Shown one piece after another: positions 2,074 through 53,100 of a stretch of 64,000 nt of DNA (the stretch's first letter is position 1; every line of letters starts with the position of its first letter). This DNA comes from Lentilactobacillus diolivorans DSM 14421 (lineage in GTDB: Bacteria; Bacillota; Bacilli; Lactobacillales; Lactobacillaceae). Below the pieces are notes generated by a model, which did not search any database, was not told the origin of the DNA, and saw only the letters and a program-made list of their open reading frames with translations. Both the position numbers and the translations under genes were made by a program. The stretch lies in the NCBI RefSeq assembly GCF_001434255.1, contig NZ_AZEY01000098.1, forward strand, positions 62,001 through 126,000. The letters run 5' to 3'.

Positions 2074-2460
2074 GTGCGAAAAGCCGCGTTTAGCTTCCAG
2101 AATATAAGAGCCTTACCCCAATATCCCCGAACCTGGGATATTGGGGTAAGGCTCTTATATGGCCGGAAGCTGCGGCTTTTCGCACGTTTAGGCTCGGTAA
2201 AATTGGTGACTTTTGTAAAGAATGGGCAACCAAGTAATTTTATATGGCCGGAAGTTGCGGCTTTTCGCACGTTTAGGCTCGGTAAATTGGTGACTTCTGT
2301 AAAGAATGGGCAGCCAAGTAATTTTATATCCCCGGAAGCTGCGGCTTTTCGCATGTTTAAACTAGGTAATATTGATGATTGCTGGCATGAACAAGTAATT
2401 AAGGGATTCATATGGCCAAAAACTACGGCGATACACTTATTTGAACTTAGTAACCTTGAG
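2074..2460 (+). repeat. Palindromic intergenic repeat, locus A, with tandem right arms
   Basis: A near-perfect 112-bp palindrome (2074-2185) has outer arms GTGCGAAAAGCCGC / GCGGCTTTTCGCAC, conserved inner tips CCAGAATATAAG / CTTATATGGCCGG, and a private stem AGAGCCTTACCCCAATATCC with its complement. It is followed by three further copies of the right arm, with their TATAT/CATAT boxes at 2156, 2241, 2325 and 2409 (period 84-85 bp, last copy degenerate). Open frames run through this stretch but only because the repeat lacks stops. It fills the gap between the ABC exporter start and the aldo/keto reductase end. Confidence 0.85.
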
Positions 2461-2539
2461 GAAGTTGGCACGAATCTAGAAAACAGGCACCTAATATAAC
2501 CAATATTTATCCTAATTCAATGAGGCTCATTTTTCCGTA

Positions 2540-2583
2540 AAAAAACGCCCATTAGTCGCAACCAATCTGCAACTGATGGGCGA
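2540..2583 (-). terminator. Rho-independent terminator of the aldo/keto reductase gene
   Basis: On the minus strand CGCCCATCAGTTGCA pairs with TTGCGACTAATGGGCG and is followed by a T run, 23 bases after the reductase stop codon. Confidence 0.8.
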
Positions 2584-2605
2584 ATGTTTAGTTTCTGATT
2601 CAATA

Positions 2606-3523
2606 TTAGAATTCTGAAAATAAGCTGTCGATTTGTTCAAATTCAGCTTTGCTTAATTGAACATCTAAGGCCTTGACGTTACTTTTAACTTGATCAGCAA
2701 TTCGAGCGCCGGGAATGACAACACTAATGTCTGGGTCGGCGATGTACCAGGCAAGAATTGCTTGAGCAACTGTGGCTGAGTGTTTGTCGGCAATTTGCTT
2801 CACTTGATCAAGGGCCTTCATGATCTTGGTATATTGATCGGCGGAAAATTGGCTGAACTTCCCTTGGTCGCCTTGGGTATATTTACCGGTCAACAAGCCT
2901 GAAGCAAGTGGAAAGTATGGGACAAATGAAATCTGGTTTTGCTTTAAGTATGGGAATAATGCTTTTTCAGCATGTCGATGAGTTAGGCTGTAATTGTCTT
3001 CAACAATATCGACTTGGCCATCAGCGTTAGCTTCTCTGATTTGGTCCAAGGAAAAGTTGGAAACACCAATCGCCTTAATCTTACCAGCCTTCTTTTCCTC
3101 GGCTAAAGCGGCGACGGCTTCGGCTTTAGGTGTTTTATCATCTGGAAAATGAATGTAGAAAATATCGATATAGTCAGTTTGCAGACGATTTAACGCATCG
3201 TCAACCGATTTTTTCAAAAATGCCGGATCGTTATTGGGCTCTAAGTGATTATTGGGATCCTGGGCAGCCTTTGAAGCAATCACAAATTTTGAACGATCAT
3301 AGTTTTGAGTTACTTCGCCAATAATTTCCTCGGAACGACCAAGTCCGTACATATACGCAGTGTCAAGTAACGAGATGCCGCTATCTAAGGCTGCTTTAAC
3401 AACTTGTTTACCGTTCTCATCTTTTAAGCCATCAAACAAATTGTGACCACCAACTTTGTTAGTTCCCAGACCAAGTGGGGTGGTTGTGACATCACTTTTG
3501 CCAATTTTAACTGATTCTGCCAT
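2606..3523 (-). CDS. Aldo/keto reductase
   Basis: 305 residues, normal for the family. It reduces aldehydes or ketones with NADPH in the cytoplasm. The (beta/alpha)8 barrel shows the catalytic tetrad context: D and Y in LLDTAYMYGLGRSEEIIGE, K in FVIASKAA, H in DIFYIHFPD. The C-terminal cofactor motif is VVIPGARIADQVKSN. The order matches the YajO/YccK-like and Tas-like bacterial reductases; the natural substrate cannot be read from sequence. The ATG has AAGGAGG at good spacing. It is a single-gene unit closed by its own terminator. An AT-rich region with TTGACA near 3570 lies upstream. Confidence 0.92.
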   Translation of the reverse strand: MAESVKIGKSDVTTTPLGLGTNKVGGHNLFDGLKDENGKQVVKAALDSGISLLDTAYMYGLGRSEEIIGEVTQNYDRSKFVIASKAAQDPNNHLEPNNDPAFLKKSVDDALNRLQTDYIDIFYIHFPDDKTPKAEAVAALAEEKKAGKIKAIGVSNFSLDQIREANADGQVDIVEDNYSLTHRHAEKALFPYLKQNQISFVPYFPLASGLLTGKYTQGDQGKFSQFSADQYTKIMKALDQVKQIADKHSATVAQAILAWYIADPDISVVIPGARIADQVKSNVKALDVQLSKAEFEQIDSLFSEF

Positions 3524-3707
3524 TGAGAAATTCCTCCTTATTTTTAATAAGTGTAACTAAGGTCATTTTAGCAGAGATGTCAATTAAGAAAAAAATAATT
3601 TAGTGGTTAAGAATTACCTTACAGTTATGGTTAATGAGATTGCGAATCGTTAAATAGTATGGCATAACAGATATAGAATAAGTAACGGGAAGGGAAGTGA
3701 AGCAGCA

Positions 3708-4037
3708 GTGAACTCTAGAAAAGGTAAATTGAAGAAGTGGTTATGGTCGTTAGGAATTCTTGTTGGGATTTTGATCTTGGCGGTCCTATCACTATCATTA
3801 TCGCCTCAGGGGGCAGTTCGACTCAGAGCTTTGGTTGATGGTCATCCGATGGTGGCACTGACCTGCCGTCCCTATCACGATAAAGATGAAGGTTGCTATA
3901 TTAATGCAACGGTTTATGATATTTCTACCAAAGATCAATATCTTTCAGTAGATGGTAGCTTTTACGTTAATATGTACCGGATTCATCACGCTACTTTTCT
4001 GTATTTTGCAACCGCGCAACCGGATATTTTAAAGTGA
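3708..4037 (+). CDS. Small membrane-anchored protein of unknown function, DGHP family
   Basis: 109 residues from a GTG start preceded by AGGGAAGTG. A basic N-terminus is followed by one hydrophobic helix (about residues 11-33) and an exported domain of about 75 residues beginning with AVRLRALVDGHPMVAL. I do not recognise a named domain. The same pattern (helix, then xVRLRxxxDGHPxxAL, a middle NAxxY motif and an aromatic C-terminus) recurs in the proteins at 21965 and, more diverged, 23025. In each place it lies next to a member of the secreted W-family (4822, 5637, 22314). The two cysteines could form a disulfide. The function is unknown; a role on the cell surface is inferred from the topology. 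Confidence 0.7.
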   Translation: MNSRKGKLKKWLWSLGILVGILILAVLSLSLSPQGAVRLRALVDGHPMVALTCRPYHDKDEGCYINATVYDISTKDQYLSVDGSFYVNMYRIHHATFLYFATAQPDILK

Positions 4038-4097
4038 TCTGCCCTTATTAAGCCTGTATCTGGTTGGTTTTCCATGGTTAAATACGATAAATAAAAA

Positions 4098-4129
4098 TGA
4101 AGCCACGTTAAGTTCCTTCGGTGGCTTCA
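4098..4129. terminator. Bidirectional terminator between the DGHP gene and dps
   Basis: TGAAGCCAC pairs with GTGGCTTCA across a 14-base loop, with A-rich and T-rich flanks suiting both converging genes. Confidence 0.7.
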
Positions 4130-4144
4130 TATCCATAAATTTAG

Positions 4145-4624
4145 TTATTCATCGTACGGCCCTTTTCCCAGGTAAGCATTGATCATCCAAATATTCTTAT
4201 CAGTTTCGTCCTTGAAGCCGTTTAACATATCCTGAGTTGGAAAGTCTTTCTCAGCGTCAGTGATTTCGATACCCTTTTGATATTGATCGCGCAAATATTT
4301 GAATTGATCGGACAACCGTTGCATAAAATCACGCATGGTTAATTGATCCCAAGTGACCTTATCATCGGGCAGGCCGGTGTTATCAATGAACTCATGGGTG
4401 GTTGAAAAAGGGGAACCGTTGATGGCAATGAGCCGCTCGGCAGCTTGATCAAGTTGGTCAGCCAGCTGATCATTATAATCGTCCATTAAGGGATGTAGTC
4501 TAAAGAAATTCTCGCCACGCATATACCAGTGGGTTTGCTGAATATTAACCTGTAATTGGCTTAAATCTGCGACCAACTGATTCAACTGAGCACGAGTCTT
4601 TGGAAAATCGTATTGTTCTGCCAT
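4145..4624 (-). CDS. dps: Dps-type ferritin-like DNA/iron protection protein
   Basis: 159 residues, usual for Dps. It forms dodecamers that oxidise Fe(II) with peroxide and store the iron, protecting DNA. The inter-subunit ferroxidase site is complete: H32, H44, D48, D59 and E63, with exactly the spacing (12, 4, 11, 4) of Escherichia coli Dps. There is no long lysine-rich tail, so DNA binding may be weak. The ATG is preceded by TAGGAGGC. It is a single gene converging on the small DGHP gene. No clear PerR or Fur box could be made out by eye. Confidence 0.95.
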   Translation of the reverse strand: MAEQYDFPKTRAQLNQLVADLSQLQVNIQQTHWYMRGENFFRLHPLMDDYNDQLADQLDQAAERLIAINGSPFSTTHEFIDNTGLPDDKVTWDQLTMRDFMQRLSDQFKYLRDQYQKGIEITDAEKDFPTQDMLNGFKDETDKNIWMINAYLGKGPYDE

Positions 4625-4821
4625 TTAAATAGCCTCCTATACTGTTATAAACGAATTCGCTTACATTACTAGTGTATCGGTTCTCCCTGGTGGATAGCAA
4701 GTGAAGTGATTTGCTTTACTGATAAGTATTTGAACAGAAAACATTCAAGGATAATTGGAACTTCAAGTTATAAAAACTATTACTGGCACAAATATGATTA
4801 GTGAAGGGAGTGCGAAGATCG

Positions 4822-5259
4822 ATGAAGAAGGTTTTAACCAGTGTATTATTTCTTGTTGTGATGTTTTTAATAATAGGTATATGTCAATGGTCTTATACAG
4901 ATTCTGCATATGCTAGCACATGGCATAAGTATAGTTCAAATATATTTGGAGTTGCAAAAAGGCAGCGAATACTAAAATATGCTGGAGCAAATTGGGGACA
5001 GTATGATGACTATGATCAAAAAGTGTATTTCAAGGATAATAAAGCAACGCAGTACAAGTATAGTAGGAAGACTCGAGTGATGCTTATTAGATATGTTAAT
5101 AAATCAAAGCGCCTCATGTCAGAATATAATTATCGTAAGTTAATTTTTACACACGGCTATAAAGAGCCAATTATTAAGTATTATTACAAACTTGGACAAG
5201 AAAAGTATAGCTATTTGTACACTGTAAAGTTTTGGATGATTCATCCTATTCGTTTTTAG
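4822..5259 (+). CDS. Small secreted basic protein, W-family member 1
   Basis: 145 residues from the ATG at 4822, with AGGGAG upstream; an in-frame GTG at 4801 is less likely. A signal peptide (MKKVLTSVLFLVVMFLIIG through AYAS) precedes a mature domain of about 110 residues, rich in Tyr, Lys and Arg, starting TWHKYSS. It is about 60 percent identical by eye to the protein at 22314 (shared RILKYAGANWGQY, LIRYVN, VKFWMIHPIRF) and more distantly related to 5637. No known domain is recognised. Export is clear from the signal peptide. The strong positive charge suggests binding to the anionic wall, but that is inference. Confidence 0.8.
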   Translation: MKKVLTSVLFLVVMFLIIGICQWSYTDSAYASTWHKYSSNIFGVAKRQRILKYAGANWGQYDDYDQKVYFKDNKATQYKYSRKTRVMLIRYVNKSKRLMSEYNYRKLIFTHGYKEPIIKYYYKLGQEKYSYLYTVKFWMIHPIRF

Positions 5260-5347
5260 AAAGATAGATACATTGGTCAATATAGTACTAGTGATAGACT
5301 GTATTGGCTAATATATAGTGGATTTGTGTTTGGGGTGATAATTATTT

Positions 5348-5554
5348 TTACTTTCGATGTTTTACACGATTTATTACTAACTTGTTTAGAGAGTATCCCG
5401 GTGAAAAGAAAATCGAAATAAATAACGCAAAGGAAATTATTCCCCAGAATAAAATTTGATTTCTCCTAACAGTAAACCAAGCAAGTATTATAACTAAGAT
5501 TACACTGCACCAAGAAAGATTGCTTATTAGTTTAGCCAATTTCTTATTATCCAT
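5348..5554 (-). CDS. Small membrane protein, two helices
   Basis: 68 residues with two hydrophobic helices (about 14-27 and 33-52) and a basic C-terminal tail (NRVKHRK). The ATG has GGGAAGGAAG at good spacing, which is the main support for it being real. It sits on the opposite strand between two W-family secreted protein genes. No family is recognised, and no function can be assigned. Confidence 0.6.
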   Translation of the reverse strand: MDNKKLAKLISNLSWCSVILVIILAWFTVRRNQILFWGIISFALFISIFFSPGYSLNKLVINRVKHRK

Positions 5555-5636
5555 TTGATTTCTTCCTTCCCAAATTAGTGAGGATAACTATAATATAAGT
5601 ATAACTCCAGGGGTGTAAACAAAGATTTCACGGGGG

Positions 5637-6086
5637 ATGTCAGCAACGGTTATAAAAAAGTGGTTTAATATATATCTTTCGCTGGTAATAGCAGTAGTTT
5701 TTGGAATGTTGTTTTTCACCCAAGTTAATACTAACGTGGAAGCAAGTTGGCGACACTTTAATGAAGGTGTTTTGGGTTATGCAAGCAGGCGAAAGGTATT
5801 AAAATATAGTCCCAGTGGCTGGGGAAATTTTGAAGCTGGGTATAAGAATGATTATTTTAAAAGTAATCGATATACACAGTATGTTTATTCAAAGAAAAGT
5901 CGAACAATGATCATCAGGTATAAGAATCGTGATAAAACCCTCAATGTTAAGTATAATTTCAGAAAAATAATCCTAAGACATGGTCATAAAACACCAACTT
6001 TTACTTACTACTACAAGGTTGGAAAGGATCGGTGGACCTATTGTTATACAATTAAGTATTGGCTTGATAAACCAACAAGATTTTGA
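5637..6086 (+). CDS. Small secreted basic protein, W-family member 2
   Basis: 149 residues. An N-terminal hydrophobic signal (about residues 10-30, ending near NVEAS) is followed by a mature domain starting WRHFNEGVLGYASRRKVLKY. It shares the frame of the family: RRKVLKY, GWG, TQYVY, MIIRYKN, YNFRKI, HGHKTP, YYYKVG, YTIKYW and a final RF. It is the most diverged of the three members. The ATG at 5637 lies unusually close to its GGGGG ribosome site, so the true start is uncertain by a few codons. Function unknown; secreted or surface-retained by inference. Confidence 0.75.
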   Translation: MSATVIKKWFNIYLSLVIAVVFGMLFFTQVNTNVEASWRHFNEGVLGYASRRKVLKYSPSGWGNFEAGYKNDYFKSNRYTQYVYSKKSRTMIIRYKNRDKTLNVKYNFRKIILRHGHKTPTFTYYYKVGKDRWTYCYTIKYWLDKPTRF

Positions 6087-6157
6087 AGAATACAAAGGTG
6101 TTCAATTAATATCTTTCACATCGTTCTTTATAAATTAACGGCTGAATTTTAGACACT

Positions 6158-6219
6158 TAAAAATAAACGTGGTAAACATCCAATAAATCTAGTCAGGATG
6201 TTTACCACGTTTATTTTTA
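6158..6219. terminator. Bidirectional terminator between W-family gene 2 and the MHS transporter
   Basis: A long perfect stem, AAATAAACGTGGTAAACATC and its complement ending TTTATTTTT, with a 14-base loop; it serves both converging genes. Confidence 0.85.
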
Positions 6220-6233
6220 GTGGATACTTTTAG

Positions 6234-7568: not shown

Positions 7569-7633
7569 GTTAGCTACCTCCCTGTGGCGATCGAAACGGA
7601 CATTATGATGTGAACATATCTAATTAGATTCAT

Positions 7634-7662
7634 ATTATAATTTAATATTTAGTAAAATACAA
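7634..7662 (-). promoter_or_regulatory. Sigma-A promoter of the MHS transporter
   Basis: On the minus strand, TTGTAT and a perfect TATAAT are separated by 17 bases, 66 bases before the ATG. It sits in the gap after gltD, indicating separate transcription. Confidence 0.75.
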
Positions 7663-7751
7663 CGTTACTTGTCATTAAAGGTAACATGAATAATCATTCG
7701 AATCGCCGTAAGTAGCTAACCCCATTGCGTTTTTAGCTTTCAAAACTTTTT

Positions 7752-14997: not shown

Positions 14998-14998
14998 G

Positions 14999-17510: not shown

Positions 17511-17952
17511 ATTAAATCAGTTATATCGGGAGGTTATTTTGGACCATGCCCAGAATCCCCGGCACCACGGCGATTTAACCAAAGCGTCCGGAACACTGAC
17601 ATTAAGGAATCCGACTTGTGGTGATGTGATCAACGTGAGTGTGTTGATCCGAGATAACCAAATTGCCGACGTGACATTTTCCGGAACCGGCTGCACGATT
17701 TCACAAGCTTCGGCGAGTTTGATGACGACAGTTTTAATTCACCAGCCGGTTGATCAGGCCCGACAATTAATTCTGGCATTCTCGCATTTAATTACGGGAC
17801 AACCAATTAGTGAGCAACTCGAAGAGCAGCTTGGGGATGCCGTCTTGGTTGGTTCCGTTGCGGAATTTCCGACCCGAATCAAATGTGCGGCACTGGCTTG
17901 GCACGCGTTGGATAATCTACTTGCCCAGAAAGGAGTTGGCAATCATGACTGA
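17497..17952 (+). CDS. sufU: Sulfur acceptor protein SufU
   Basis: 151 residues. SufU takes the persulfide from SufS in Gram-positive bacteria and binds zinc. The metal and active residues are visible: C41 and D43 (NPTCGDVI), C66 ([10 protein letters not shown]) and C130 (RIKCAALAW). The insertion between C66 and C130 that separates SufU from IscU is present. The start overlaps sufS and the end overlaps sufB by 8 bases, so translation is tightly coupled through the operon. Confidence 0.96.
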
Positions 17953-19348
17953 TGTTTCAGAAATTGTTAAGGATACTGATTATGAATATGGTTTTCATGA
18001 TGATGTCAAGCCGGTTTATTCGACCGGTAAAGGCTTAACAGAGGCGATCGTTCGTGAAATTTCTGCCGAAAAGCATGAACCTAAATGGATGCTGGATTAC
18101 CGACTAGCAGCTTATCGGACTTATTTAAAGATGGCCGAGCCGGATTTTGGCCCCGACCTAACCAAATTGGATCTGGATAATATGACCTATTACCAAAAGG
18201 CAACCGATAAAAAGTATCGGGACTGGGATGATGTTCCAGAGAAAATTAAGACCACTTTTGATCGATTAGGGGTCCCAGAAGCCGAAAGAAAGTATTTAGC
18301 CGGTTCTTCCGCCCAGTATGAATCGGAAGTGGTTTATCACAATATGATGGACCAATTCGAAAAGCTGGGAATTATCTTTACGGATACGGATACGGCGCTG
18401 CAGAAGTATCCTAAACTATTTAAAAAGTGGTTTGGTAAATTAGTTAAGCCGACTAATAATAAATATGCCGCGCTAAATTCGGCGGTTTGGTCTGGTGGGA
18501 CTTTTATTTATGTTCCAAAGGGGGTCACGGTTACCACGCCAATTCAGGCCTATTTCCGGCTAAATGCTGAAAAGTCTGGCCAATTTGAACGTACTTTAAT
18601 TATTGTCGATGAAGGGGCTCATGTGGAATACGTTGAGGGATGTACCGCGCCAACCTACAAGAGTGATAGTTTGCACGCGGCGGTCGTTGAGGTAAATGTA
18701 TTGCCTCACGCGTATTGTCGGTATACCACCATTCAAAATTGGTCCAACAATGTTTATAGCTTGGAAACTAAACGTGCCCAAGCTTTGGAAGGTGCCATTA
18801 TGGAATGGGTCGATGGTAATTTGGGGTCTAAAATTACGATGAAATACCCCTCTGTTTATTTGAACGGTGAGGGCGCCCGGGGAACGATGCTGTCGATCGC
18901 GGTGGCCGGAAAGAATATTGATTCGGATACGGGTGCTCAAATGATTCATAACGCGCCAAATACGTCTTCGTCTGTTATTTCAAAATCAATTGCCAAGGAC
19001 GGTGGGGCGGTGGATTACCGTGGCAAGATTAAATTCGGTCGTCATTCGGATGGTTCATTTGCGCATGTGGAATGTGACACGATTATTATGGATGACCAAT
19101 CGTCCAGCGATACAATTCCGTATAATGAAATTTTGAATAATAACGTTTCGATGGAGCATGAGGCAAAGGTTTCAAAAATTTCTGAGGAGCAACTCTATTA
19201 TCTAATGAGCAGGGGAATCCCGGAGGCCAAGGCAACGGAAATGATTATTATGAGCTTTGTGGAACCTTTTACAAAGGAGTTGCCAATGGAGTATGCGGTG
19301 GAATTGAACCGGTTGATTAGCTTTGAGATGGAGGGGAGCATTGGATAG
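17945..19348 (+). CDS. sufB: Fe-S scaffold protein SufB
   Basis: 467 residues from the ATG at 17945 (AAAGGAG 8 bases upstream). SufB is the scaffold subunit on which the iron-sulfur cluster is assembled. Typical features are [26 protein letters not shown], the conserved YVEGCTAP cysteine, [13 protein letters not shown], and the C-terminal [23 protein letters not shown]. The length is normal. It closes the five-gene suf operon and is followed by a palindromic repeat locus rather than a clear terminator. Confidence 0.97.
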
Positions 19349-19356
19349 TAGACAGA

Positions 19357-19735
19357 GTGCGCCAACAAGCGGTTAGATCCCAGAATATAAGCACCCTAAA
19401 CCCAATATTTCGGGTTTGAATATTGGGTTTAGGGTGCTTATATGGCCGGGATCTGCTTGTTGGCACACGTTTCAGCTAGATAGCAGTGATAAATTCCGGT
19501 TCTGAATAGTAGGCTTAACTGCCTTATATGGCCGGGATCTGCTTGTTGGCACACGTTTCGGCTAGATAGCAGTGATAAATTCCGGTTCTGAATAGTAGGC
19601 TTAACTGCCTTATATGGCCGGGATCTGCCTTCTTTCACACGTTTCAGCTAGGTAGCAGGGATAAAAAAATATTCCGGGTTAAAATATTGGGCCTAGGGTG
19701 TTTATATGGCCGGGATCTGCCGTCCTTCACAGTTT
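19357..19735 (+). repeat. Palindromic intergenic repeat, locus B, with 86-bp tandem arms
   Basis: A 112-bp palindrome (19357-19468) with outer arms GTGCGCCAACAAGCGG / CTGCTTGTTGGCAC, tips CCCAGAATATAAG / CTTATATGGCCGGG and a private stem GCACCCTAAACCCAATATT with its complement. The right arm recurs with TATAT boxes at 19439, 19525, 19611 and 19703. The first two 86-bp units differ at one visible base, implying recent duplication. It lies between sufB and the sufT-like gene. Confidence 0.88.
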
Positions 19736-19805
19736 TTGATTGAGCAGAAACTGTTTCATAAATTGTATAACTATCAGTCACGCTAAGAGAAAGGAAATGA
19801 TCAAA

Positions 19806-22313: not shown

Positions 22314-22745
22314 ATGAAAAAGATCTTATTAAGAGTGTTCTTTTTAACTATTGGTATGTATACATTATTACTATTCACATCATCGTTGACAACTCATGCA
22401 GCAATTTGGCATCGATATAATCCAAGCCTTTTAGGTGTTGCAAGAGACCAGCGGATTCTTAAATATGCAGGGGCTAATTGGGGGCAGTACGAAGGCTATG
22501 ATCAAAAAAGGTATTTTAAGGATTCCAATACCACTTGTTATCGTTATGATGCACGAAGACGACTCATGGTTATTCGGTACGTCAACCATGATAAACGACT
22601 GAAGGTGAACTATAATTATCGAAAATTGGTGTTTAGACATGGCCAAAAAACCCCAATTATTGCATATTACTACAGACTTGGACATCAAGCGTTTGCCTAT
22701 CTTTACACGATAAAGTTTTGGATGATTCACCCAATTCGATTTTGA
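22314..22745 (+). CDS. Small secreted basic protein, W-family member 3
   Basis: 143 residues. A signal peptide (MKKILLRVFFLTIGMYTLLL to THAA) precedes a mature domain of about 115 residues starting IWHRYNPSLLGVARDQRILK. Shared with member 1 (4822): RILKYAGANWGQY, YFKD, IRYVN, YNYRKL, and the final VKFWMIHPIRF or IKFWMIHPIRF. Such close identity between loci 17 kb apart means recent duplication or strong constraint. Tyrosine- and arginine-rich; no known domain seen. Secreted or wall-bound by inference from the signal peptide and charge. Confidence 0.8.
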   Translation: MKKILLRVFFLTIGMYTLLLFTSSLTTHAAIWHRYNPSLLGVARDQRILKYAGANWGQYEGYDQKRYFKDSNTTCYRYDARRRLMVIRYVNHDKRLKVNYNYRKLVFRHGQKTPIIAYYYRLGHQAFAYLYTIKFWMIHPIRF

Positions 22746-27330: not shown

Positions 27331-27372
27331 GGGGGCTGGGACAAAAGTAATTTTGTCCCAGTCTCTATTTGT
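27331..27372 (+). terminator. Terminator of alsSD in a GGGACAAAA element
   Basis: GGCTGGGACAAAA pairs perfectly with TTTTGTCCCAGTC around a GTAA loop, 27 bases after alsD. It is followed by the phrase TGTAATCACGATTATTACC that is repeated after 32764. Confidence 0.85.
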
Positions 27373-27394
27373 GTAATCACGATTATTACCAGGT

Positions 27395-27603
27395 AAAAAC
27401 GCGGGACAAAAGGCAACTTTCGGTCGTGTAACCGAATTATCCAAATATTCAAGATCAGAATATCTCGCTGAACTTGTTACTTAGTTAAAACATGGGCCAG
27501 CAAGCAGACCCCGGCCATACAAGCCTCCTAACTTGACATTCCAAAATCGGGAATATCAAGTTAGGAGGCTTATATTCTGGGGTCTAACCGCTTACCGGCC
27601 CAC
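27395..27603 (-). repeat. Palindromic intergenic repeat, locus C (reverse orientation)
   Basis: The complete copy spans 27491-27603: outer arms GGGCCAGCAAGCAGACC / GGTCTAACCGCTTACCGGCCC, tips GGCCATACAAG / CTTATATTCTGGGG, private stem GCCTCCTAACTTGA and complement. A degenerate arm (27400-27490) with a small hairpin precedes it. The rest of this 873-base gap holds AT-rich sequence and the symporter promoter. Confidence 0.8.
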
Positions 27604-27935
27604 TCTGTTTTGTGTTGCAAAGCTGCCAACCTTAACGGACAGGTGGTGATCTGTTTTGTAGTTAGCTATTCTTGTTCATCCGTTAAATTTTTTCACAGAA
27701 TTTTCATGATTTTTCCAAACCTATTTGCTATCTTTATCATTACTGATAATAGATAATCTTATTGGAAAATAGATTTGGAGGTGAAGTCAATAGAGAATGA
27801 TATTAATTAATAAACACTAAACAATACTAAAATTTATTCTAATATTAGTAAAATAATGTTGGTCGATCAATCCGCGGTATATTAGGCTTTAAATTCGATA
27901 ATAAAATTTATTTGTCGGATAACAAATCTTTACAG

Positions 27936-29569: not shown

Positions 29570-29652
29570 ACTTAGTCGTTCATAGGTAAGCTTCCAATTA
29601 AAGAGTGAGGCAAAAAAACGCTTAGCTTCCACTCGGCAATAATCATGATGAT

Positions 29653-29697
29653 ACAAAACAGGACTGGACAAAATTACTTTTGTCTCAGCCCTGTTTT
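29653..29697 (-). terminator. Terminator of the S53 protease in a GGGACAAAA-type element
   Basis: AAAACAGGACTGGACAAAA pairs with TTTTGTCTCAGCCCTGTTTT. Oriented with the minus-strand protease gene whose stop is at 29718. The downstream arm (29604-29650) ends in GTGAGGC/CACTC like the relatives. Confidence 0.8.
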
Positions 29698-29717
29698 TGT
29701 GAGTTGAATTCTATAAT

Positions 29718-32763: not shown

Positions 32764-32806
32764 AAGAGGCTGAGGCAAAAATAATTTTGTCCCAGTCCTG
32801 TTTTGT
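32764..32806 (+). terminator. Terminator in a GGGACAAAA-type element after the NlpC/P60 gene
   Basis: AGGCTGAGGCAAAA...TTTTGTCCCAGTCCTGTTTTG, followed by TGTAATCACGATTATTACCG as after alsD. Confidence 0.75.
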
Positions 32807-32836
32807 GTAATCACGATTATTACCGAGTGGAAACGT

Positions 32837-32946
32837 GCGCCAAAAGGCAACTTCCTGCCGCGTAACCGAATTATCCAAACATTCAAGCCCGGAATATTCG
32901 GATAATCCAATTACGCTCTGGAAGTTAACCGCCTTTCGTCCCACTC
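32837..32946 (-). repeat. Degenerate palindromic repeat copy
   Basis: Outer arms GTGCGCCAAAAGGC-AACTTCC and GGAAGTTAACCGCC..CCCAC flank an inner stem AATTATCC...GGATAATC. The arms match those of loci A and D, but the usual CCATATAAG / CTTATATTC tips have diverged to CCGCGTAAC / TTACGCTC. Confidence 0.6.
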
Positions 32947-33017
32947 TCTTTGTTTATTATTGGGCTAAATGGGGACAAGACCTTTTTGCCTATCCGTAAG
33001 CCGACAATCATTTTTTA

Positions 33018-33311: not shown

Positions 33312-33407
33312 GATAGGCCTCCTGTGGTTATTATAGCAAATCCTGGACGTTTTCCTTGATGATCGGAAATCCGTGTTGAGGGTAAATGTACAAAAAGTGT
33401 CAGTAAC

Positions 33408-33750
33408 GTTTGGCCATATAAGGTACTTAGTCCCAGATATCCTCTGTGGTTAATGTTTTGGGTTACAGAGATTAAACGTGTAAAAGAGCCGCAACTTCCG
33501 GCCAGATATCCCAATATGGTTAATGTTTTGGGCTACCCAGCCAAAATGAGCAAAAGAGCCACAACCCTCGGCCATATAAGCTACTTAGTCCCAGCTGTCC
33601 TCTGTGGTTAATGTTTTGGGTTACCGAGACTAAACGTGCAAAAGAGCCGCAACTTCCGGCCATATAAGCTCCTCAAACTAATATCCCCCAAAAACGGGAA
33701 TATTAGTTTGAGGAGCTTATATTCTGGAAGCTACCCGCGGCTTTTTGCAC
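33408..33750 (-). repeat. Palindromic intergenic repeat, locus D (reverse), with tandem arms
   Basis: The complete palindrome is 33636-33750: outer arms GTGCAAAAGAGCCGC / GCGGCTTTTTGCAC, tips CCGGCCATATAAG / CTTATATTCTGG, private stem CTCCTCAAACTAATATCCC and complement. Extra arms with GCCATATA-type boxes at 33413, 33501 and 33571 precede it (steps 88, 70, 88 bp to 33659). It ends 4 bases before the DJ-1 gene stop and fills the gap to the small membrane protein. Confidence 0.85.
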
Positions 33751-33754
33751 TCTC

Positions 33755-34441
33755 CTACTTCAGCAACGCCTTAATCACCGCTTCGCCCACACCCGTTGCC
33801 GAATTTGGGTTTTGGCCCGTAATTAGTTTGCCGTCCGTTACCACATTGGGTTGGAACGGATCACTCTTTGAAAAATCCGCTCCCGATTTTTTTAACTCAT
33901 CCTCTGGTAGAAACGCGACATCATTAGTTAAGCCGTTTAGTGCCTCTTCGTCATTTGTAAAGCTGGTTAGTTTTTTGCCATGGACGAATCGTTTGCCGTC
34001 AGTTGTTCGCATTGCCAGCAATCCTGAAACGCCCACACAATTTGCAGATAAAACGCCGCCCCTTTCGTAGATTGATGACGCAATCTTTGCCAAGTCCTTA
34101 TTTTCAGGAAAATCATACATTGCACCGTGACCACCTGCGTAGTAGATGACTTGATAGTCGTCCGGATTGACATCAGCTGGCTTCAGCGAATTTGCCAAGT
34201 GGACGTTTCTGGTCTTATCGTCCAGATAGAAGTTCCAATCAATAGAATCCATATCATCTGGTGCTAAACTTAAAGGATCTATGGGGACGTAACCGCCATT
34301 TGGGCTGACATAGTCAACATCGATTTCATTTTCTTTCATCACATTATCGAAGTGGGCTGCCTCGTGAAACCATAAGCCGGTGGCTCGGTCCATTTCACCA
34401 AATTTGGGATGATTTGTGACGACAATTAATGCTTTCGTCAT
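33755..34441 (-). CDS. DJ-1/PfpI superfamily protein, Hsp31-like
   Basis: 228 residues from the ATG at 34441 (GAGGT upstream; earlier ATGs lack spacing). The family includes glyoxalase III, deglycase-like and chaperone proteins. The nucleophile elbow carries C135 (LSANCVGVSGLL), with the usual Glu near the N-terminus (E27 in GLWFHEAAHF) and YYAGGHGAMYDF. The extra cap PNGGYVPIDPLSL is typical of the Hsp31/YDR533C-like branch, which handles methylglyoxal. Cytoplasmic; no operon partner. Confidence 0.88.
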   Translation of the reverse strand: MTKALIVVTNHPKFGEMDRATGLWFHEAAHFDNVMKENEIDVDYVSPNGGYVPIDPLSLAPDDMDSIDWNFYLDDKTRNVHLANSLKPADVNPDDYQVIYYAGGHGAMYDFPENKDLAKIASSIYERGGVLSANCVGVSGLLAMRTTDGKRFVHGKKLTSFTNDEEALNGLTNDVAFLPEDELKKSGADFSKSDPFQPNVVTDGKLITGQNPNSATGVGEAVIKALLK

Positions 34442-34782
34442 ATATTGCATTACCTCACTTTGAATTCGTAGGTCTAACATTGTCCGTGGGAGATAATAAC
34501 CCTATTGACGAAATTAAGCAAATCTTAACTCTGAGTTCGCATAAATGTTATGAATAATATAGAAAGTTTCTGATTTTTGAGGTCAGGATAAACGATGTCT
34601 CAAAGCGCAATTCCAGTAAGAAATGCCATGTCGCTATTGTCTGGAAGCGGTTTAGTATGTTATTATCAGTGCAACTTGTACATATTAGTTATGGTTAACT
34701 TAGCTAAATAAAATAATGGCAAGTGATGACTTTTTGCGTATATAAGTATTGTAACCTTACCATCGTCCATAAGGAGGAAAAC

Positions 34783-36480: not shown

Positions 36481-36525
36481 TTATTTGATCATCTTGTGAA
36501 TCATTATTGAGTACTATTTAGAAAA

Positions 36526-36566
36526 GCGGGGCTGAGACAAAAGAAATTTTGTCCGGCCCCGTTTTG
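36526..36566 (+). terminator. Terminator of the BcrAB-like operon
   Basis: CGGGGCTGAGACAAAA pairs with TTTTGTCCGGCCCCG and is followed by TTTTG; a repeat-like arm ATCATGATTATTACTTAG follows, ending in ACACTCTG at 36631. Confidence 0.85.
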
Positions 36567-36664
36567 AGTTATCATGATTATTACTTAGTGGAACGTGAGG
36601 AAAAGAACAGCCCCCCTACACTCTGTTTTGATATTCGGGAACATTTATTAAATCTAGAATTCAG

Positions 36665-48075: not shown

Positions 48076-48211
48076 ATTCTTTATGCCCCCATATCTGATT
48101 TGCGCGATATTTCTATCACAACTCCAATGTAACACCAGGTAGAAACGAAGGCCTAATTTTAACACTGAGTTTAGCCAAATGGGCATTTTCTTGGGATAAT
48201 CTTAAGAAGTG

Positions 48212-48273
48212 TGACAGATAAAAATCCGCTGGTCAACGAATTTCATAACTCGTTTAGATCAGCGGATTTTTAT
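48212..48273. terminator. Bidirectional hairpin before the S-layer-like gene
   Basis: GATAAAAATCCGCTG pairs with CAGCGGATTTTTATC; it ends the minus-strand transporter gene (48282) on its downstream side. Confidence 0.75.
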
Positions 48274-48281
48274 CTGATTCA

Positions 48282-49712
48282 TTAAGCGTGGTTTTCTTTA
48301 ATGGTTAATGACAGGCTAAGCGCCAAAATTGCAAATACTAATGGGAAAATGAGACCGACGTGGACACCGGTTGTAAAAGCAACCTGATGACTGGCGGTAC
48401 TAGATAATTGTTGACCAAATGCCAGTAAACTAGTCGCGATCGCGGTGGCAATCGCACCAACAATTTGTTGAAAGGTATTCATAATTGTGCTGCCGTCACT
48501 GGAAGTTCGTTGATCTAATGCACCGAGGCCAAACGTTTGGGCCGGCGACATCGATAGTGGGACACCGACCATCATAATGATGTGTGCCATGATGACATAC
48601 CAAACCGGTGATGTCGAAGTGGCGAATAATAAGGCGATGATCCCAATAATGGTGATGCCAAATCCCAATGTGGTTAGTAATCGTGGGCTGACTGTATCAG
48701 AAGATCGACCGGCGATCGCGGAAACAATTGCGTTGACGATGCCACCAGGCAGCATGACAATTCCAGTTAACGCAACCGGGATGGCTAATCCATTTTGCCA
48801 GAACATTGGTAGAAGGTACATCGATGATAAAATGATCCCGAAGTCCAACATAACCAGAATGGCACCGGTCCGGAACTGTTTGTTGGCAAAAACTTTGAAG
48901 TTTAATATTGGCGTGGCTGATTTAACTTGGCGATGAATATACCAGCCAAGTAAAATAACCGCAACAACAAGGGTTCCCAGCACACTGGGGGAAGTCCAGC
49001 CGGAGTCGCTGGCCAGGCTGACGCCAGTTACCAGGCCGCCAAATCCCAGTGTTGATAGTAAAATTGAAAAACTGTCAATTTTTGGTTTCGTAATGGTTCC
49101 GACGTTTGGCAGATATTTGAAAGCCAAAAAAAAGCCAATTAATAAAAATGGGACGAACAACCAAAAAATCCACTGCCATGAAAGGATTCCTAAGATCATT
49201 CCGGCCAAAGTCGGGCCAATGGCTGGGGCAAACATAATGACCAAGCCAATCATCCCCATTGCGGATCCTAATTTATAAGGTGGGAAAATTAAGGTTGCAA
49301 CTGTGAACATTAACGGTAAAATCAAGCCGGTCGCAATTCCTTGAATCATTCGACCAATTAGCAGCATGCCAAAGCTGGGAGCCAGTGCAGAAATGGTGGC
49401 TCCAACCATGAAGTCAATTAAAGCGAATAGAATAATTTGACGAGTCGAGAAAATTCGGCTGAGTAGACTTGATAATGGCAAAACAATTCCAATAATGAGC
49501 ATGTAGCCAGTAACCAACCATTGGATAGTCCCAATATTGACGTGCAACTGAGTCATTAAGGTTGGCAGGGCGATGTTGAGGGATGTTTCGCTGAGCATTC
49601 CCACAAAGCCACCAATCAGCATTCCCAGCATGGCCAGAAACGGGCGGGTAACCGGTTTGGCAGCTTGTTTTGGCTCTGCAGCTTCATCGGCTGTATTTAA
49701 AGATTTTTCCAT
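48282..49712 (-). CDS. MFS transporter, DHA2 family (EmrB/LmrB-like)
   Basis: 476 residues, about 14 helices. DHA2 motifs: TSLNIALPTLMTQLHVNIGTIQWLVTGY, LIGRMIQGIATGLILPLMF, and motif C GPTLAGMILGILSWQWIFW. It exports drugs or other lipophilic molecules. The C-terminus is short, without the long loop of the transporter at 38405. AAAAGGAG lies 13 bases before the ATG, a little long. It is divergent from the TetR gene at 50351, but a repeat locus and MITE separate them. Confidence 0.9.
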   Translation of the reverse strand: MEKSLNTADEAAEPKQAAKPVTRPFLAMLGMLIGGFVGMLSETSLNIALPTLMTQLHVNIGTIQWLVTGYMLIIGIVLPLSSLLSRIFSTRQIILFALIDFMVGATISALAPSFGMLLIGRMIQGIATGLILPLMFTVATLIFPPYKLGSAMGMIGLVIMFAPAIGPTLAGMILGILSWQWIFWLFVPFLLIGFFLAFKYLPNVGTITKPKIDSFSILLSTLGFGGLVTGVSLASDSGWTSPSVLGTLVVAVILLGWYIHRQVKSATPILNFKVFANKQFRTGAILVMLDFGIILSSMYLLPMFWQNGLAIPVALTGIVMLPGGIVNAIVSAIAGRSSDTVSPRLLTTLGFGITIIGIIALLFATSTSPVWYVIMAHIIMMVGVPLSMSPAQTFGLGALDQRTSSDGSTIMNTFQQIVGAIATAIATSLLAFGQQLSSTASHQVAFTTGVHVGLIFPLVFAILALSLSLTIKENHA

Positions 49713-49809
49713 TTAAGTAATGACGCTCCTTTTCTGAAAACAATTCTGTAACGACAATTGATTACATTACCATAGTTGGGAGTTTTTCGTAAGTGTTTTC
49801 TGGTATAGA

Positions 49810-50167
49810 GTGTGACAGCAAGCGGTTAACTCCCAGAATATAAGCCCCTTAATCGAATAATCTGGGTCTGAATATTGGATTAAGGGGCTTATATGGCCGG
49901 GATCTGCTTTCTGTCGGCTCTTTCCATGCTTCAACGAGCAGGTAAGGATATTTAGACCACAAAAATCACGAAAACGCTATGGAATCCTTTTTACATTTTG
50001 AAATCTTATTTGTAAAACCATTAAATAAGAATGTCGCTCAACCGTGGAAAGAGCCTTTCTGTCACACGTTTCAGCCAAGTAAACAGGCCACCGAACATTC
50101 AAAGTTTGAATATTGAGTTAAGGGCTTATATGATTGGGAGATAGTCGTCCTTTGTCACCCATTTCAG
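49810..50167 (+). repeat. Palindromic intergenic repeat, locus E, split by a MITE
   Basis: Left arm GTGTGACAGCAAGCGGTTA, tips CCCAGAATATAAG / CTTATATGGCCGGG, private stem GCCCCTTAATCGAAT...ATTGGATTAAGGGGC. The right arm is interrupted after GCTTTCTGTC by a 140-bp insertion and resumes as TTTCTGTCACAC at 50056. A further degenerate arm (50068-50167, box TTATATGATTGGGAG) follows. It lies between the DHA2 and TetR genes. Confidence 0.85.
49916..50055. mobile_element. 140-bp MITE, probably derived from an ISL3-family element
   Basis: Ends GGCTCTTTCCA (49916) and its exact complement TGGAAAGAGCC (50045-50055), extending imperfectly to about 22 bp. The 8-bp duplication TTTCTGTC flanks both sides (49908-49915, 50056-50063). 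No transposase frame is inside. The GGCTCTT start and 8-bp duplications are known for ISL3-family elements, hence the assignment. Interior is AT-rich and includes ACCACAAAAATCACGAAAAC. Confidence 0.82.
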
Positions 50168-50350
50168 CGCTGTAACTTGGGGAACATGGAGATTTCAAAA
50201 TTAAAAGCTTTGCCGATTAAGGGCTACACGTGGCAGTTTCAATTAATAAAAAATTTGATTGAAAAAATGATTACGCCAAAAAATCCTTTTTATCCTGTCA
50301 TAATTGCCGGCTATAATATAGGTAAATATCCAACTCAGGGAGGGATGCAG

Positions 50351-50923
50351 ATGGCTAAACAAGCGACGAAATGGAAACTGGCTGAAACGTTAAAAACAAT
50401 GATGTTAACGACGTCCGTTGACCATATCACGATTGAAATGCTGACAAAAAAGGCGAAGCTGACCCGAAATACGTTTTATTATCATTTTGATGATATCTAT
50501 TCATTGCTAGAGTGGATTTATAAGCAGGAATTATTGGCAAACATTGAAGCTTATACAAAGATTGAGGATTGGAAAATTGCCTATCGATTGATTCTTGATT
50601 ACATTGAAGATAACCAACAATTTTGTCTGGAAACATTTCGTTCGGTTGCCCGTGATCTGCTTGAAAACTTTTTGTATTCAGTTGCCCGTGATTTAGTGAA
50701 AAAAGTGATTGTTCATTCTCAGTTGACGGTTTCACCCAAGCTTCAAAAGTCGATTACCAATTTCTATGGATGGGCGTTGGTGATGCAAGTTGTTCAGTGG
50801 TTGGCCAATGGTTTGAAGGAGCCTAAGGGGGCAGTTGTCTTACGGGCAGAAATTATGCTAACCGGTGGAATCGAAAACGCGATTCAAAATGGTCGTCAAT
50901 TCCCTGATTTTGGGCAAAGTTAA
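50351..50923 (+). CDS. TetR-family regulator near oleate hydratase
   Basis: 190 residues from the ATG at 50351 (GGGAGGG). N-terminal helix-turn-helix DHITIEMLTKKAKLTRNTFYYHFDDIYSLLEWIY; the C-terminal domain resembles the DhaS-like TetR group (KITNFYGWALVMQVVQWLANG-type end). It precedes the tiny membrane gene and oleate hydratase on the same strand with 109 bases between, so control of these genes or of the divergent transporter is likely, but unproven. Confidence 0.85.
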   Translation: MAKQATKWKLAETLKTMMLTTSVDHITIEMLTKKAKLTRNTFYYHFDDIYSLLEWIYKQELLANIEAYTKIEDWKIAYRLILDYIEDNQQFCLETFRSVARDLLENFLYSVARDLVKKVIVHSQLTVSPKLQKSITNFYGWALVMQVVQWLANGLKEPKGAVVLRAEIMLTGGIENAIQNGRQFPDFGQS

Positions 50924-51031
50924 CCAATTGACCATTTATTTTCGATTGGAAACCTTTACAATGATAGGTAGAACAAATTAGTAACATTTAAAACGATGAC
51001 TGCAAGGCGTCATGTTTGAGGAGGCTTTCCG

Positions 51032-51163
51032 ATGAAACATAAAAAATTAGTTGTTACCGGTGTGGGAGTTATCATGCTGGGCGTTTATTTCTTAAAATCA
51101 ATTGGCTGGTTTGAAAATGATGCTCATTTATACGATCAGTTTGAAGATTCCGATAATCGATAA
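51032..51163 (+). CDS. Tiny single-helix membrane protein before oleate hydratase
   Basis: 43 residues: basic start MKHKKLVV, one helix (about 7-22, VVTGVGVIMLGVYFLKSIGW) and an acidic tail (ENDAHLYDQFEDSDNR). GAGGAGG stands before the ATG and the stop is followed by the AAGGAGGAG site of oleate hydratase 15 bases on, so the two form a unit. Oleate hydratase acts at membranes, so the peptide might help localise it; that is speculation. Confidence 0.68.
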   Translation: MKHKKLVVTGVGVIMLGVYFLKSIGWFENDAHLYDQFEDSDNR

Positions 51164-51177
51164 GGAGGAGTTCACAT

Positions 51178-52872
51178 ATGACAAAAAGTAAAGCCATTAT
51201 GATTGGTGCCGGTCTGGCAAATATGGCTGCCGCTGTTTACTTAATTCAAGAAGGTCATTGGCAGGGTAATCAAATCACCTTTTATTCAATTGATGATCAT
51301 GGTTCCAATGATGGTTCGGCTGCCGATGAAGCTGCTGACGAATATTGGAACAAGAATCATCCCTTAGATAATACAAAAGGGTTTATTGCTCGTGGTGGTC
51401 GGATGCTTAATTACCGGACATACGTTGATTTGATGGATCTGTTGGATCGGGTACCATCAGCTACTGAACCGGCAATGACGGCCGCTGAAGATACTCGTGA
51501 TTTTGATGCCCATCACCGGACCTTTGATAAAGCCCGGTTGATGGAAGGCGGCAAGGGCATTATTGACGGCGGTAAGTTGGGTCTCAACAACAAGGATCGT
51601 TGGTACCTGACGAAACTAATTCTGATGCCGGATTCTAAGGAAGAAGAACTTGATAACGTCACGATTGCTGATTATTTCAAAGAAGATCAACATATCTTCC
51701 AAACTAATTTCTGGTATATGTGGGAAACAACCTTTGCTTTTCGAACTCAGAGTTCAGCTCAAGAGTTACGTCGATATATGCACCAAATGATCTATGAATT
51801 TACTCAAATTGAGCATTTGGTTGGGGTTAACCGAACCCGATATAATCAGTATGAGAGTATGATGCTGCCGCTAATTAACTATTTGAAAGAGCAGGGCGTC
51901 AATATTGTTTTGAACCGACGAGTAACGGATTTTGAATTTAAGGACACGCCAATGCAGGATCAAATTACTGTTACTGGCTTAAAAATGACAAATACTGAAA
52001 CAGATGAAGTCGAACATGTCGATGTTGATGATGACACCGCCGTTATCTTCACCAATGGGTCAATTACTGATTCTGCAACGTTAGGTGATTATAATACGCC
52101 TGCTGCGGAAAATATGGATTATGGGGCCGCTGCCAGTTTATGGAAGAAAGCAACCGATCGTTTCTACAACTTGGGCAATCCTGATAAGTTCTTCGCGGAT
52201 CGGGATGCCAGCGAATGGGTTAGTTTCACATTAACCACCAAGAATCATACGTTGTTAAATGAAATTACCCGAATCACAACGCAGGTTCCTGGGAATGCGT
52301 TAAATTCGTTCTTATCAACATCTCCAATTACGCCGTTAGGTAACAAGGATGTCAATATGTCGATTGTGGTTCATCATCAACCACATTTTACAACCCAAAA
52401 GCCAAATGAATCGGTAATCTGGGGGTATTTCTTGTATCCACGCCGTCGGGGCGAATTTGTTGAAAAACCGTATATTGAAATGACGGGTAAAGAAATGGCC
52501 GAGGAGTTAATTGGCCAATTATCCAAGGTTGATCCAGGTCCGGGTAATATTATGGATAAAAAGCAGGAAATTTTGGATAGTATTATCAATAATATTCCGT
52601 CATATATGCCATATGCGTCCGCTCTATTTAATAATCGGGCAAAGGCAGATCGCCCGTTGGTCATTCCGGCTCATTCAACAAACCTAGCCTTCACGGGTGA
52701 ATTTGCGGAACAGCCATATCAAATGGTCTTCACGGAGCAGAGTGCGGTTCGATCCGGTGAAATTGCCGCATATCACTTTGCGGGCATCCCAATGTCTAAG
52801 TTAGTGAAAAATCCAAGGTACGATAAGGATCCAAAGACATTAGCGAGAGCAACGCGGAAGATGTTTAGGTAA
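51178..52872 (+). CDS. ohyA: Oleate hydratase (myosin-cross-reactive antigen family)
   Basis: 564 residues, FAD protein that adds water to unsaturated fatty acids such as oleate, giving hydroxy acids and detoxifying them. FAD motif GAGLANMAAAVYL near the N-terminus; GFIARGGRML around 69-77; NQYESMMLPLINYLKEQGV; C-terminal AFTGEFAEQPYQMVFTEQSAVRSGE. In the well-studied enzymes the loop reads RGGREM, with the Glu aiding catalysis. Here it is RGGRML, so M76 stands in that position, as reported for a Rhodococcus erythropolis enzyme group. The rest is intact and normal length. Strong AAGGAGGAG site. Confidence 0.93.
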   Translation: MTKSKAIMIGAGLANMAAAVYLIQEGHWQGNQITFYSIDDHGSNDGSAADEAADEYWNKNHPLDNTKGFIARGGRMLNYRTYVDLMDLLDRVPSATEPAMTAAEDTRDFDAHHRTFDKARLMEGGKGIIDGGKLGLNNKDRWYLTKLILMPDSKEEELDNVTIADYFKEDQHIFQTNFWYMWETTFAFRTQSSAQELRRYMHQMIYEFTQIEHLVGVNRTRYNQYESMMLPLINYLKEQGVNIVLNRRVTDFEFKDTPMQDQITVTGLKMTNTETDEVEHVDVDDDTAVIFTNGSITDSATLGDYNTPAAENMDYGAAASLWKKATDRFYNLGNPDKFFADRDASEWVSFTLTTKNHTLLNEITRITTQVPGNALNSFLSTSPITPLGNKDVNMSIVVHHQPHFTTQKPNESVIWGYFLYPRRRGEFVEKPYIEMTGKEMAEELIGQLSKVDPGPGNIMDKKQEILDSIINNIPSYMPYASALFNNRAKADRPLVIPAHSTNLAFTGEFAEQPYQMVFTEQSAVRSGEIAAYHFAGIPMSKLVKNPRYDKDPKTLARATRKMFR

Positions 52873-52876
52873 CAGA

Positions 52877-53100
52877 GTGTGACAGAAAGCGGTTAGATCC
52901 CAGAATATAAAGCCCCTCAACCGGATACCCAGAACTTAGGGTATCCGGTTGAGGGGCTTTATATGGCCGGGATCTGCTTTCAGTCACACGTTTTGACTAG
53001 GTAAAAAAAGATATCCCAGAACTTGGGGTATCGGGCCGAATGGCTTTATATGGTCGGGATCTGCTTGTGGTCACACGTTTTAGCCGGGTAAAAAAGGATA
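52877..53100 (+). repeat. Palindromic intergenic repeat, locus F
   Basis: A 113-bp palindrome (52877-52989): outer arms GTGTGACAGAAAGCGGTTAG / CTGCTTTCAGTCACAC, tips CCCAGAATATAAAG / CTTTATATGGCCGGG, private 20-bp stem GCCCCTCAACCGGATACCC and complement, loop AGAACTTA. One more right arm with TTTATATGG follows (53046-53090). It starts 5 bases after ohyA. Confidence 0.9.

Follow-up and report, generated by a model that had tools for sequence, protein, structure and literature searches.

Among the hairpin repeats of bacteria, BOX elements of Streptococcus pneumoniae are built from modules, the inner ones varying in number, and REP elements carry a conserved GTAG beside a palindrome of 20–40 nt. 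The enterobacterial repeats known as ERIC, IRU or RU-1 (127 bp) form long stem-loops dispersed in many copies beside genes. In Yersinia, ERIC elements are reported to be co-transcribed and to alter the stability of upstream mRNA in an orientation-dependent, ribosome-linked manner, and a table of the same paper lists terminal inverted repeats and target-site duplications for them (PMC2229807). Here we describe a family of hairpins of similar size and abundance, represented by seven copies in a 64,000-nt stretch of Lentilactobacillus diolivorans DSM 14421 (contig NZ_AZEY01000098.1, positions 62,001 to 126,000; ‘the window’). We show, from the sequences of these copies and their relatives, that the gene-sense strand of the hairpin is kept folded by selection while most pairs of its inner stem, which is private to each copy, are free to change.

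The family differs from ERIC elements in that its stem is private to nearly every copy, no duplication was detected between left flank and right tail, most copies start at a stop codon, and the hairpin is followed by extra right arms. Compared with miniature inverted-repeat transposable elements (MITEs), its arms are inverted repeats throughout and the left flank is not duplicated in the right tail, a comparison that covered the trailing array short of its far end. Going by their description, BOX elements resemble the family in being modular. The conserved ends of the unit, AGAGTG and CACGTTT, are not the GTAG of REP elements, and no Y1 transposase regularly accompanies the family (see below), so that a likeness to REP elements suggested in the initial annotation was not upheld. 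REP and REPIN elements with their RAYT are also hairpin repeats that lie between genes in large numbers per genome (PMC3116915), whereas the unit here is ∼119 nt long with variable stems. The MRSC-65-2 motif (NAR 2024, PMC11109978) is described as a single long stem with strong covariation, often in dozens of copies per genome, and is thought to be selfish; it occurs in diverse phyla, carries a repeated UYCCGG, and is presented in a main text that makes no mention of lactobacilli, so that on description alone an overlap with the present family is possible.

The origin and upkeep of long RNA stems under random mutation is a puzzle for theorists, and template switching has been published as a route by which such stems are made and maintained (PMC8794818). 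We propose the same route of stem making and repair for the present hairpins. That study dealt with ancestral histories of RNA genes, whereas here more than 100 siblings in one genome combine constant recognition parts with varied stems and appear to keep older arms beside the current ones, thereby providing a natural test of stem maintenance. Close relatives show compensatory change and signs of arm-copying, with what look like superseded arms still present.

Anatomy of the hairpin and the strand that folds

Counted with an exact-tip pattern, CCAGAATATAA-N20-50-TTATATGGCCGG, the host genome has 111 copies, of which 63 are in forward and 48 in reverse orientation (0 for a reversed-pattern control); the own-genome analyses below rest on 100 of these. 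Thirty copies, including two from the window, went into a covariance model of 119 positions and 48 pairs, which gave at least 150 matches in the same genome (all 150 candidates that were scored matched). The unit is a hairpin of ∼119 nt and ∼48 bp, made of a left arm (L) and a right arm (R1) that is often followed by decayed right arms. Read along the sense strand, the 5' part consists of AGAGTG and an outer arm that varies, then C-G-N-T-T-(A), which includes a 4-nt bulge, a short stretch that also varies, CCAGA and NNN-TAA; the centre of a ∼20-bp private stem closed by a ∼7-nt loop; and the 3' part of TTA-N'N'N', GGCCGG, CTGC, the complementary outer arm, CACGTTT and YRGCTARGTA. The constant parts are thus an asymmetric internal loop (5' AGA / 3' GGCC between CC and GG), the GNTT bulge, the ends AGAGTG and CACGTTT, and the TAA/TTA steps; apart from that one internal loop the CCAGA and GGCCGG tips pair. 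In loci from several genera, inspected by eye, CCAGA/GGCCGG was the commonest tip, with other tips beside it, in a survey biased by the model having been made from CCAGA copies. A tip specific to each species, hinted at by one locus (the MCRA locus, below), was not upheld in those loci.

The arms of each copy match one another and differ between copies. Across the 30 copies and 48 pairs, 97.9% of cells are paired, a value that falls to about 40% when the partner is slid by one column. Both sides had changed in 338 cells, compared with 93 in shuffles, and 34 of the 48 pairs show such double changes; the covariation score was 0.660 against 0.170 when shuffled, with none of 500 shuffles as high, which, together with the empty reversed-pattern control, rules out that the copies are chance hairpins. 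Inner sequences are distinct in 99 of 100 copies, and 43 of 100 private stems contain no pair other than Watson-Crick.

One to four additional right-half units, by a strict motif, lie downstream of the hairpin in 54 of the 100 copies. At the same locus the first of these (R2) is more like R1 than permuted units are, both in the inner part (63% versus 49%) and in the outer part (75% versus 53%; 0 of 1000 permutations as high, n=53), and it pairs with L at 69% of positions where R1 does so at 98% (n=53). We read these units as superseded right arms.

Imperfect pairs within the private stems indicate which strand is folded. The host copies contain 53 G·T, 4 A·C and 23 other mismatches; the 23 lie mostly at the two pairs beside the loop, and with those positions dropped the counts are 51, 4 and 5. 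Copies from other genomes gave 55 G·T, 4 A·C and 7 others (42 copies; a further 8 of the 50 aligned badly, with almost no pairs). With each of 47 stem clusters, one of which holds 24 copies, represented by a single member, the ratio was 19 G·T to 2 A·C. Relative to the background ratio given below, P is about 1e-9 for each of the 53:4 and 55:4 counts and, as the copies are related, only indicative. In a neutral palindrome, transitions yield G·T and A·C equally, apart from any strand bias in mutation. Between two close relatives, C/T and A/G transitions on the sense strand numbered 398:306 upstream and 71:66 downstream, or about 1.3:1; mutation bias therefore does not explain the excess of G·T. 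That G·T is kept and A·C is not points to selection on the fold of the gene-sense strand, and this pattern is what a folded RNA leaves, or else single-stranded DNA with that polarity. Selection for structure, one of two explanations offered in the initial annotation, was borne out in this strand-specific form. Copies lying after an opposite-strand gene were also considered as a relaxed class (mismatch 1.09% versus 0.34%), with numbers too few to decide.

Changes in the stem between close relatives

The manner in which stems change was followed in two relatives (G011 and G016) that are 94% identical over the MCRA-family gene preceding one of the window copies. Orthologous G016 sequence was available for 16 G011 elements, 15 of them resolvable, and at each of those 15 sites G016 carries an element as well. 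This sharing is biased, because 12 of the 15 G016 stretches had been chosen for the presence of an element; the three that form a fair test (L209, L211 and L258) are all shared.

Individual pairs were counted in the 10 of 16 ortholog pairs with stems of equal length. Left out were two in which the inner hairpin has been replaced (L200, L208), one that differs in length (L206), one with a run of N (L209), one that ran beyond the end of the available sequence (L210) and one in which both arms are rewritten (L212). Of 260 pairs in the 10 stems, 233 are unchanged, 14 have changed on one side and 13 on both. A standard pair is kept in 9 of the 14 one-sided changes, by wobble, and in 12 of the 13 two-sided changes, 11 of which go from one Watson-Crick pair to another; 4 and 5 of the 13 sit in single elements.

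Other differences involve whole blocks. The inner hairpin is swapped, with the outer arms kept, between L200 and its ortholog L268, where the tip type has also changed, and between L208 and L267, where the new stem resembles the one at a different locus (L210). In L206/L214 one member has a base pair that is missing from both arms of the other. L and R1 have been rewritten together in L212/L215 and L204/L280, the old right arm remaining as R2, and a right unit has been gained or lost in L260/L273. In four of the 15 orthologous elements (L208, L247, L248 and L257) G011 has TCTGG as its right tip, complementary to CCAGA at every base, where G016 has a GGCCGG-like tip; the family consensus suggests that the change ran from the GGCCGG-like form to TCTGG. 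The alignments show that stems differ in matched blocks and that inner hairpins are exchanged whole, and superseded right arms, as we read them, remain downstream.

Matched insertions or deletions, exact-complement tips and block changes argue for template switching within the hairpin (quasipalindrome correction) together with exchange between copies, and the bias toward wobble argues that selection filters what these processes produce. ‘Copying by fold-back’, the other explanation first offered, thus gained support as an added mutational process, chiefly from the exact-complement right tips.

Placement beside genes and possible roles

With upstream genes called as open frames of at least 90 amino acids (aa), 80 of 100 copies share the strand of the gene before them, and 64 of 100 start between −24 and +6 nt from a stop codon on their own strand. 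Between −24 and +7 of the stop, 61 starts were observed against 7.9 expected from uniform placement (n=76 testable). In other genomes 30 of 50 copies abut a stop codon, as do 13 of 17 in other genera, the 50 having been taken for their high scores and not at random. A symporter gene on a Lactiplantibacillus plantarum plasmid has an element starting at its stop, and a plasmid of Loigolactobacillus backii has one just past fabI.

The reading that we favor, to which we would give an even chance of being right, is that of an RNA hairpin module in 3' untranslated regions that acts in the manner of ERIC elements and is kept by selection, fold-back template switching and gene conversion. Matched rewriting of the arms would arise from quasipalindrome template switching during replication and from gene conversion between copies, and selection for the fold would decide which rewritten stems persist. 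The folded strand would be RNA in the 3' untranslated region, acting post-transcriptionally on the upstream message. A nuclease specific for double-stranded RNA, or another protein, might recognize the 3'-end stem at its constant internal loops, and a ribosome halted at the stop codon may cover the base of the stem and so couple the module to translation. For a function of this kind ERIC in Yersinia would be the nearest precedent. If the hairpins are transcribed, the module would shape mRNA ends at a large number of genes in each genome.

Several observations weigh against this reading. The wobble signal would look the same if what folds were a single DNA strand of that polarity, and copies after opposite-strand genes, where less direct transcription might be expected, show the same preference (10 G·T versus 1 A·C). 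A stop codon is not obligatory, as the gene before the element is on the opposite strand in 20 of 100 copies and another 16 lie farther from a same-strand stop; at least two of the 20 (L057 and L017) seem by eye to be preceded by a short frame under the 90-aa cut-off. One copy sits in the 5' leader of serS, and we infer both transcription and molecular function from sequence.

A neutral quasipalindrome, its arms matched by template switching alone and with neither selection nor function, would account for the exact-complement tips and the matched block changes by a published route of stem making (PMC8794818). Neutral decay, however, predicts mismatches at the background ratio of 469:372, far from the 53:4 and 55:4 observed, and template switching should erase the asymmetric tips and the GNTT bulge, both of which persist; we consider this explanation highly improbable. 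A different proposal, which we think unlikely, is a self-rewriting palindrome with an ordered fossil record of right arms, in which L–R1 serves as a sensor of translation termination. Each new left arm would have a matching right arm laid beside it and the previous right arm pushed downstream, so that the array would preserve earlier states of the hairpin in order, and a terminating ribosome would melt the base of L–R1 and thereby control processing of the message.

The location directly past stop codons would also suit an intrinsic terminator, or a 3'-end signal that replaces one. At the MCRA locus most element-free relatives have terminator-like hairpins (by eye), one relative (G012) has an ordinary two-way terminator hairpin where the host has an element, and terminator-like sites follow 20 of 61 element genes compared with 18 of 37 controls, a difference that is suggestive and not decisive. 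Against this, no T run is found, as had been noted at the outset: the consensus of 98 aligned copies ends in a conserved CACGTTT followed by YRGCTARGTA. In both G011 (L212) and, at the same site, G016 (L215), a sense-direction copy lies between a T-box leader and serS, where a terminator would shut off serS. In G011 the element spans about 2044–2160 and the T-box leader 1832–2023 (87.4 bits, E 1.3e-19; absent from the gathering-score scan because the Rfam cut-off is 93), and the open frame of serS (2099–3499; TIGR00414, E 4.9e-157) starts inside the element, with the family match beginning at residue 40, near 2216. Since transcription must pass through this copy for serS to be expressed, it is not a terminator, and the hairpin, to go by this site, is not one, at least not always; termination is an improbable general role. 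Likeness to attC sites, which would make the elements recombination sites that mark gene cassettes, appears in the imperfect palindrome, the variable stem, the conserved unpaired positions and the placement straight after stop codons. attC sites recombine as the folded bottom strand, unlike the gene-sense strand selected here, and among the 76 copies with a same-strand upstream gene the following gene keeps that strand in 42 and takes the opposite one in 34, which is not cassette-like. We find this idea barely credible, and the attC and retron likenesses raised in the initial annotation found no support in these features, and no search aimed at integron integrases or reverse transcriptases was made.

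A selfish mobile element (a REP/REPIN or IS200/IS605 derivative, or MITE-like) whose DNA folds as one strand and that prefers gene ends as targets, its fold serving transposition and not acting as RNA, we regard as doubtful, though with a real chance of being correct. Copy numbers are uneven (111 exact-tip copies in the host, 28 in G005 and at most 5 in each of the other 58 genomes searched), a single stem cluster holds 24 copies, and distant matches occur on 20 plasmid records. At the MCRA locus a clear element directly after the stop, with differing tips, is present by eye in six of 16 genus relatives (G016, G011, G021, G009, G004 and G013), two more being ambiguous (G008, G014) and most of the others having the terminator-like hairpins; this patchiness, seen over larger distances, means that repeated gain or loss has happened. 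Set against mobility are the sites common to G011 and G016, with the three that form a fair test, and the left flank, whose likeness to the right tail is no greater inside a copy than across copies (166 of 300 permutations gave a value as high), so that no target-site duplication was seen in that comparison. The Y1 transposase family (PF01797) occurs in 7 of 24 genus genomes, with three members in G000, and was not found in 10 of the 16 that bear elements (including G004, G006 and G014), so that the cognate RAYT or Y1 gene sought as a companion of the family did not emerge. Movement by a Y1 transposase at present is unlikely; past mobility, or gain by another route, may have occurred. A 400-kb part of a large G016 contig, picked regardless of elements, contained the element site of none of the 42 G011 loci compared. 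An empty site was sought for one recent copy (L016): G012, the sole relative in which its two neighboring genes are adjacent, is 67–78% identical and has an ordinary terminator there, so that boundaries were unreadable.

Distribution and the copies in the window

The exact pattern was found in seven of 60 genomes, host included, all within the host's genus, and, among the matches listed, in at least 52 stretches from Lentilactobacillus, Secundilactobacillus, Paucilactobacillus and Levilactobacillus species. The plasmid records with distant matches belong to Lactiplantibacillus, Loigolactobacillus, Pediococcus and Levilactobacillus. Running the covariance model across lactobacillar genomes, as had been proposed, placed the family in several genera: at E≤1e-4 it matched 164 of the 397 genomes of the family, spread over 23 of 40 genera, with the weaker matches possibly generic long hairpins. 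The model gives the antisense of true copies about 31–78 bits and any long perfect hairpin can score, so that matches below about 80 bits, which make up much of the 164 and include 36 genomes outside the family, may be unrelated. The large-scale searches scored the best nine or fewer candidates per genome and the small ones the best 150 or fewer, and counts for some relatives include opposite-strand duplicates of one palindrome. G016 as a whole gave 138 matches in 2.9 Mb, some of them such duplicates, whereas 400 kb of its contig C12 (L366–L385; 20001–380000 and 400001–440000) gave only three of at least 80 bits; copies are therefore unevenly spread and some large regions avoided. Closely spaced pairs of opposite-strand copies lie at G000:C60:34334–34605, C23:24112–24729 and C23:34245–34716.

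Rfam 15 gave no match in the window at gathering score, so that, as far as that catalogue goes, the family is not one already described, and what may be a gene-end RNA module of several lactobacilli genera is missing from it. At lax limits five loci gave below-cut-off matches only, those at the elements being mainly to microRNA-precursor and other simple hairpin families; among them was the Enterococcus small RNA Ref64 (30 of 44.3 bits). The pattern had no match in phage and viral sequence collections, and no description of the hairpin family was found in openly accessible literature on lactobacilli or new structured RNAs. Stem-loop families of 40 genomes, Lactobacillus johnsonii among them, have been reported (PMC2267715) and may include a relative of the present family.

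The hairpin at the fabI gene end is identical, private stem included, in the host, on the Loigolactobacillus backii plasmid and in two genomes from two further genera (L076, L116, L130 and L131, the last two being one element in the 50-copy foreign set), so that a stem can travel with its gene; judging by this identity, the fabI gene end with its hairpin is a recent horizontal transfer.

The model gave seven sense-strand matches in the window, between 79.8 and 131 bits, and six weaker ones that are antisense readings of the same palindromes (Table 1). The six full copies of the initial annotation were recovered at their places and in their orientations. Its seventh, called degenerate at 32837, proved to be a well-folded minus-strand member with a tip of its own (−67.3 kcal/mol over 170 nt folded). 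The right inner tip, given as always CTTATATGGCCGG, is so in most copies; copy c has CTTGTATGGCCGG and copy f CCAGAATATAAAG/CTTTATATGGCCGG. A location only between genes holds loosely, as 8 of 100 copies contain the end of the upstream frame, 24 nt in, and 5 more are overlapped by it over 5–15 nt. Ten proteins encoded in the window were typed, those of the SufBD, DJ-1/PfpI and MCRA genes of Table 1 among them. The additional right-half units of ∼86 nt that trail the window copies had not been mentioned. In copy b the outer arm of the first such unit still fits L and those of the second and third do not, and in copy c the right unit that follows belongs to a different tip subfamily (both by eye).

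Table 1. Hairpins of the family and their trailing right-half units in the window
Feature	Positions	Strand	Details
Copy a, hairpin L+R1	2071–2189	+	AGAGTG...CCAGAATATAAG left arm, private stem, CTTATATGGCCGG...CACGTTT right arm; 131 bits
Copy a, extra right-half units	2190–2421	+	∼85 nt each, no left arm; repeat families D3, D6, D13
Copy b, hairpin L+R1	19354–19472	+	starts 5 nt past stop of SufBD-type gene 17810–19348
Copy b, three extra right-half units	19473–19756	+	family D1
Copy c, hairpin L+R1	27488–27606	−	covariance model match
Copy g, hairpin	32831–32947	−	different tip subfamily, CCAGAGCGTAA/TTACGCGGCAGG; 92.5 bits
Copy d, hairpin L+R1	33632–33753	−	starts 1 nt past stop of DJ-1/PfpI-type gene 33755–34480
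Copy d, extra right-half units	33405–33631	−	families D8, D11
Copy e, hairpin L+R1	49807–49924	+	right arm split by ∼150-bp insert, resumes near 50055; 79.8 bits; family D9
Copy f, hairpin L+R1	52874–52993	+	starts 1 nt past TAA of MCRA-family gene 51178–52872
Copy f, single extra right-half unit	53015–53100	+	family D1

The insert in copy e (49916–50055) has the ends GGCTCTTTCCA/TGGAAAGAGCC and, by eye, an apparent 8-bp duplication, TTTCTGTC; it is presumably a miniature element of the ISL3 type. A second family of hairpin repeats, with the core GACTGGGACAAAATTANTTTTGTCCCAGTC, occurs in the window at 27334–27463, 29627–29717, 32768–32897 and 36503–36593, and is often joined to the right tail of the palindrome family (families D7, I1, I3, I11 and I13); these hairpins may be two-way terminators. 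Two similar stretches at 4921–5257 and 22407–22743 (71–76% identity, families D4 and D10) lie in direct orientation, 17.5 kb apart, within open frames.

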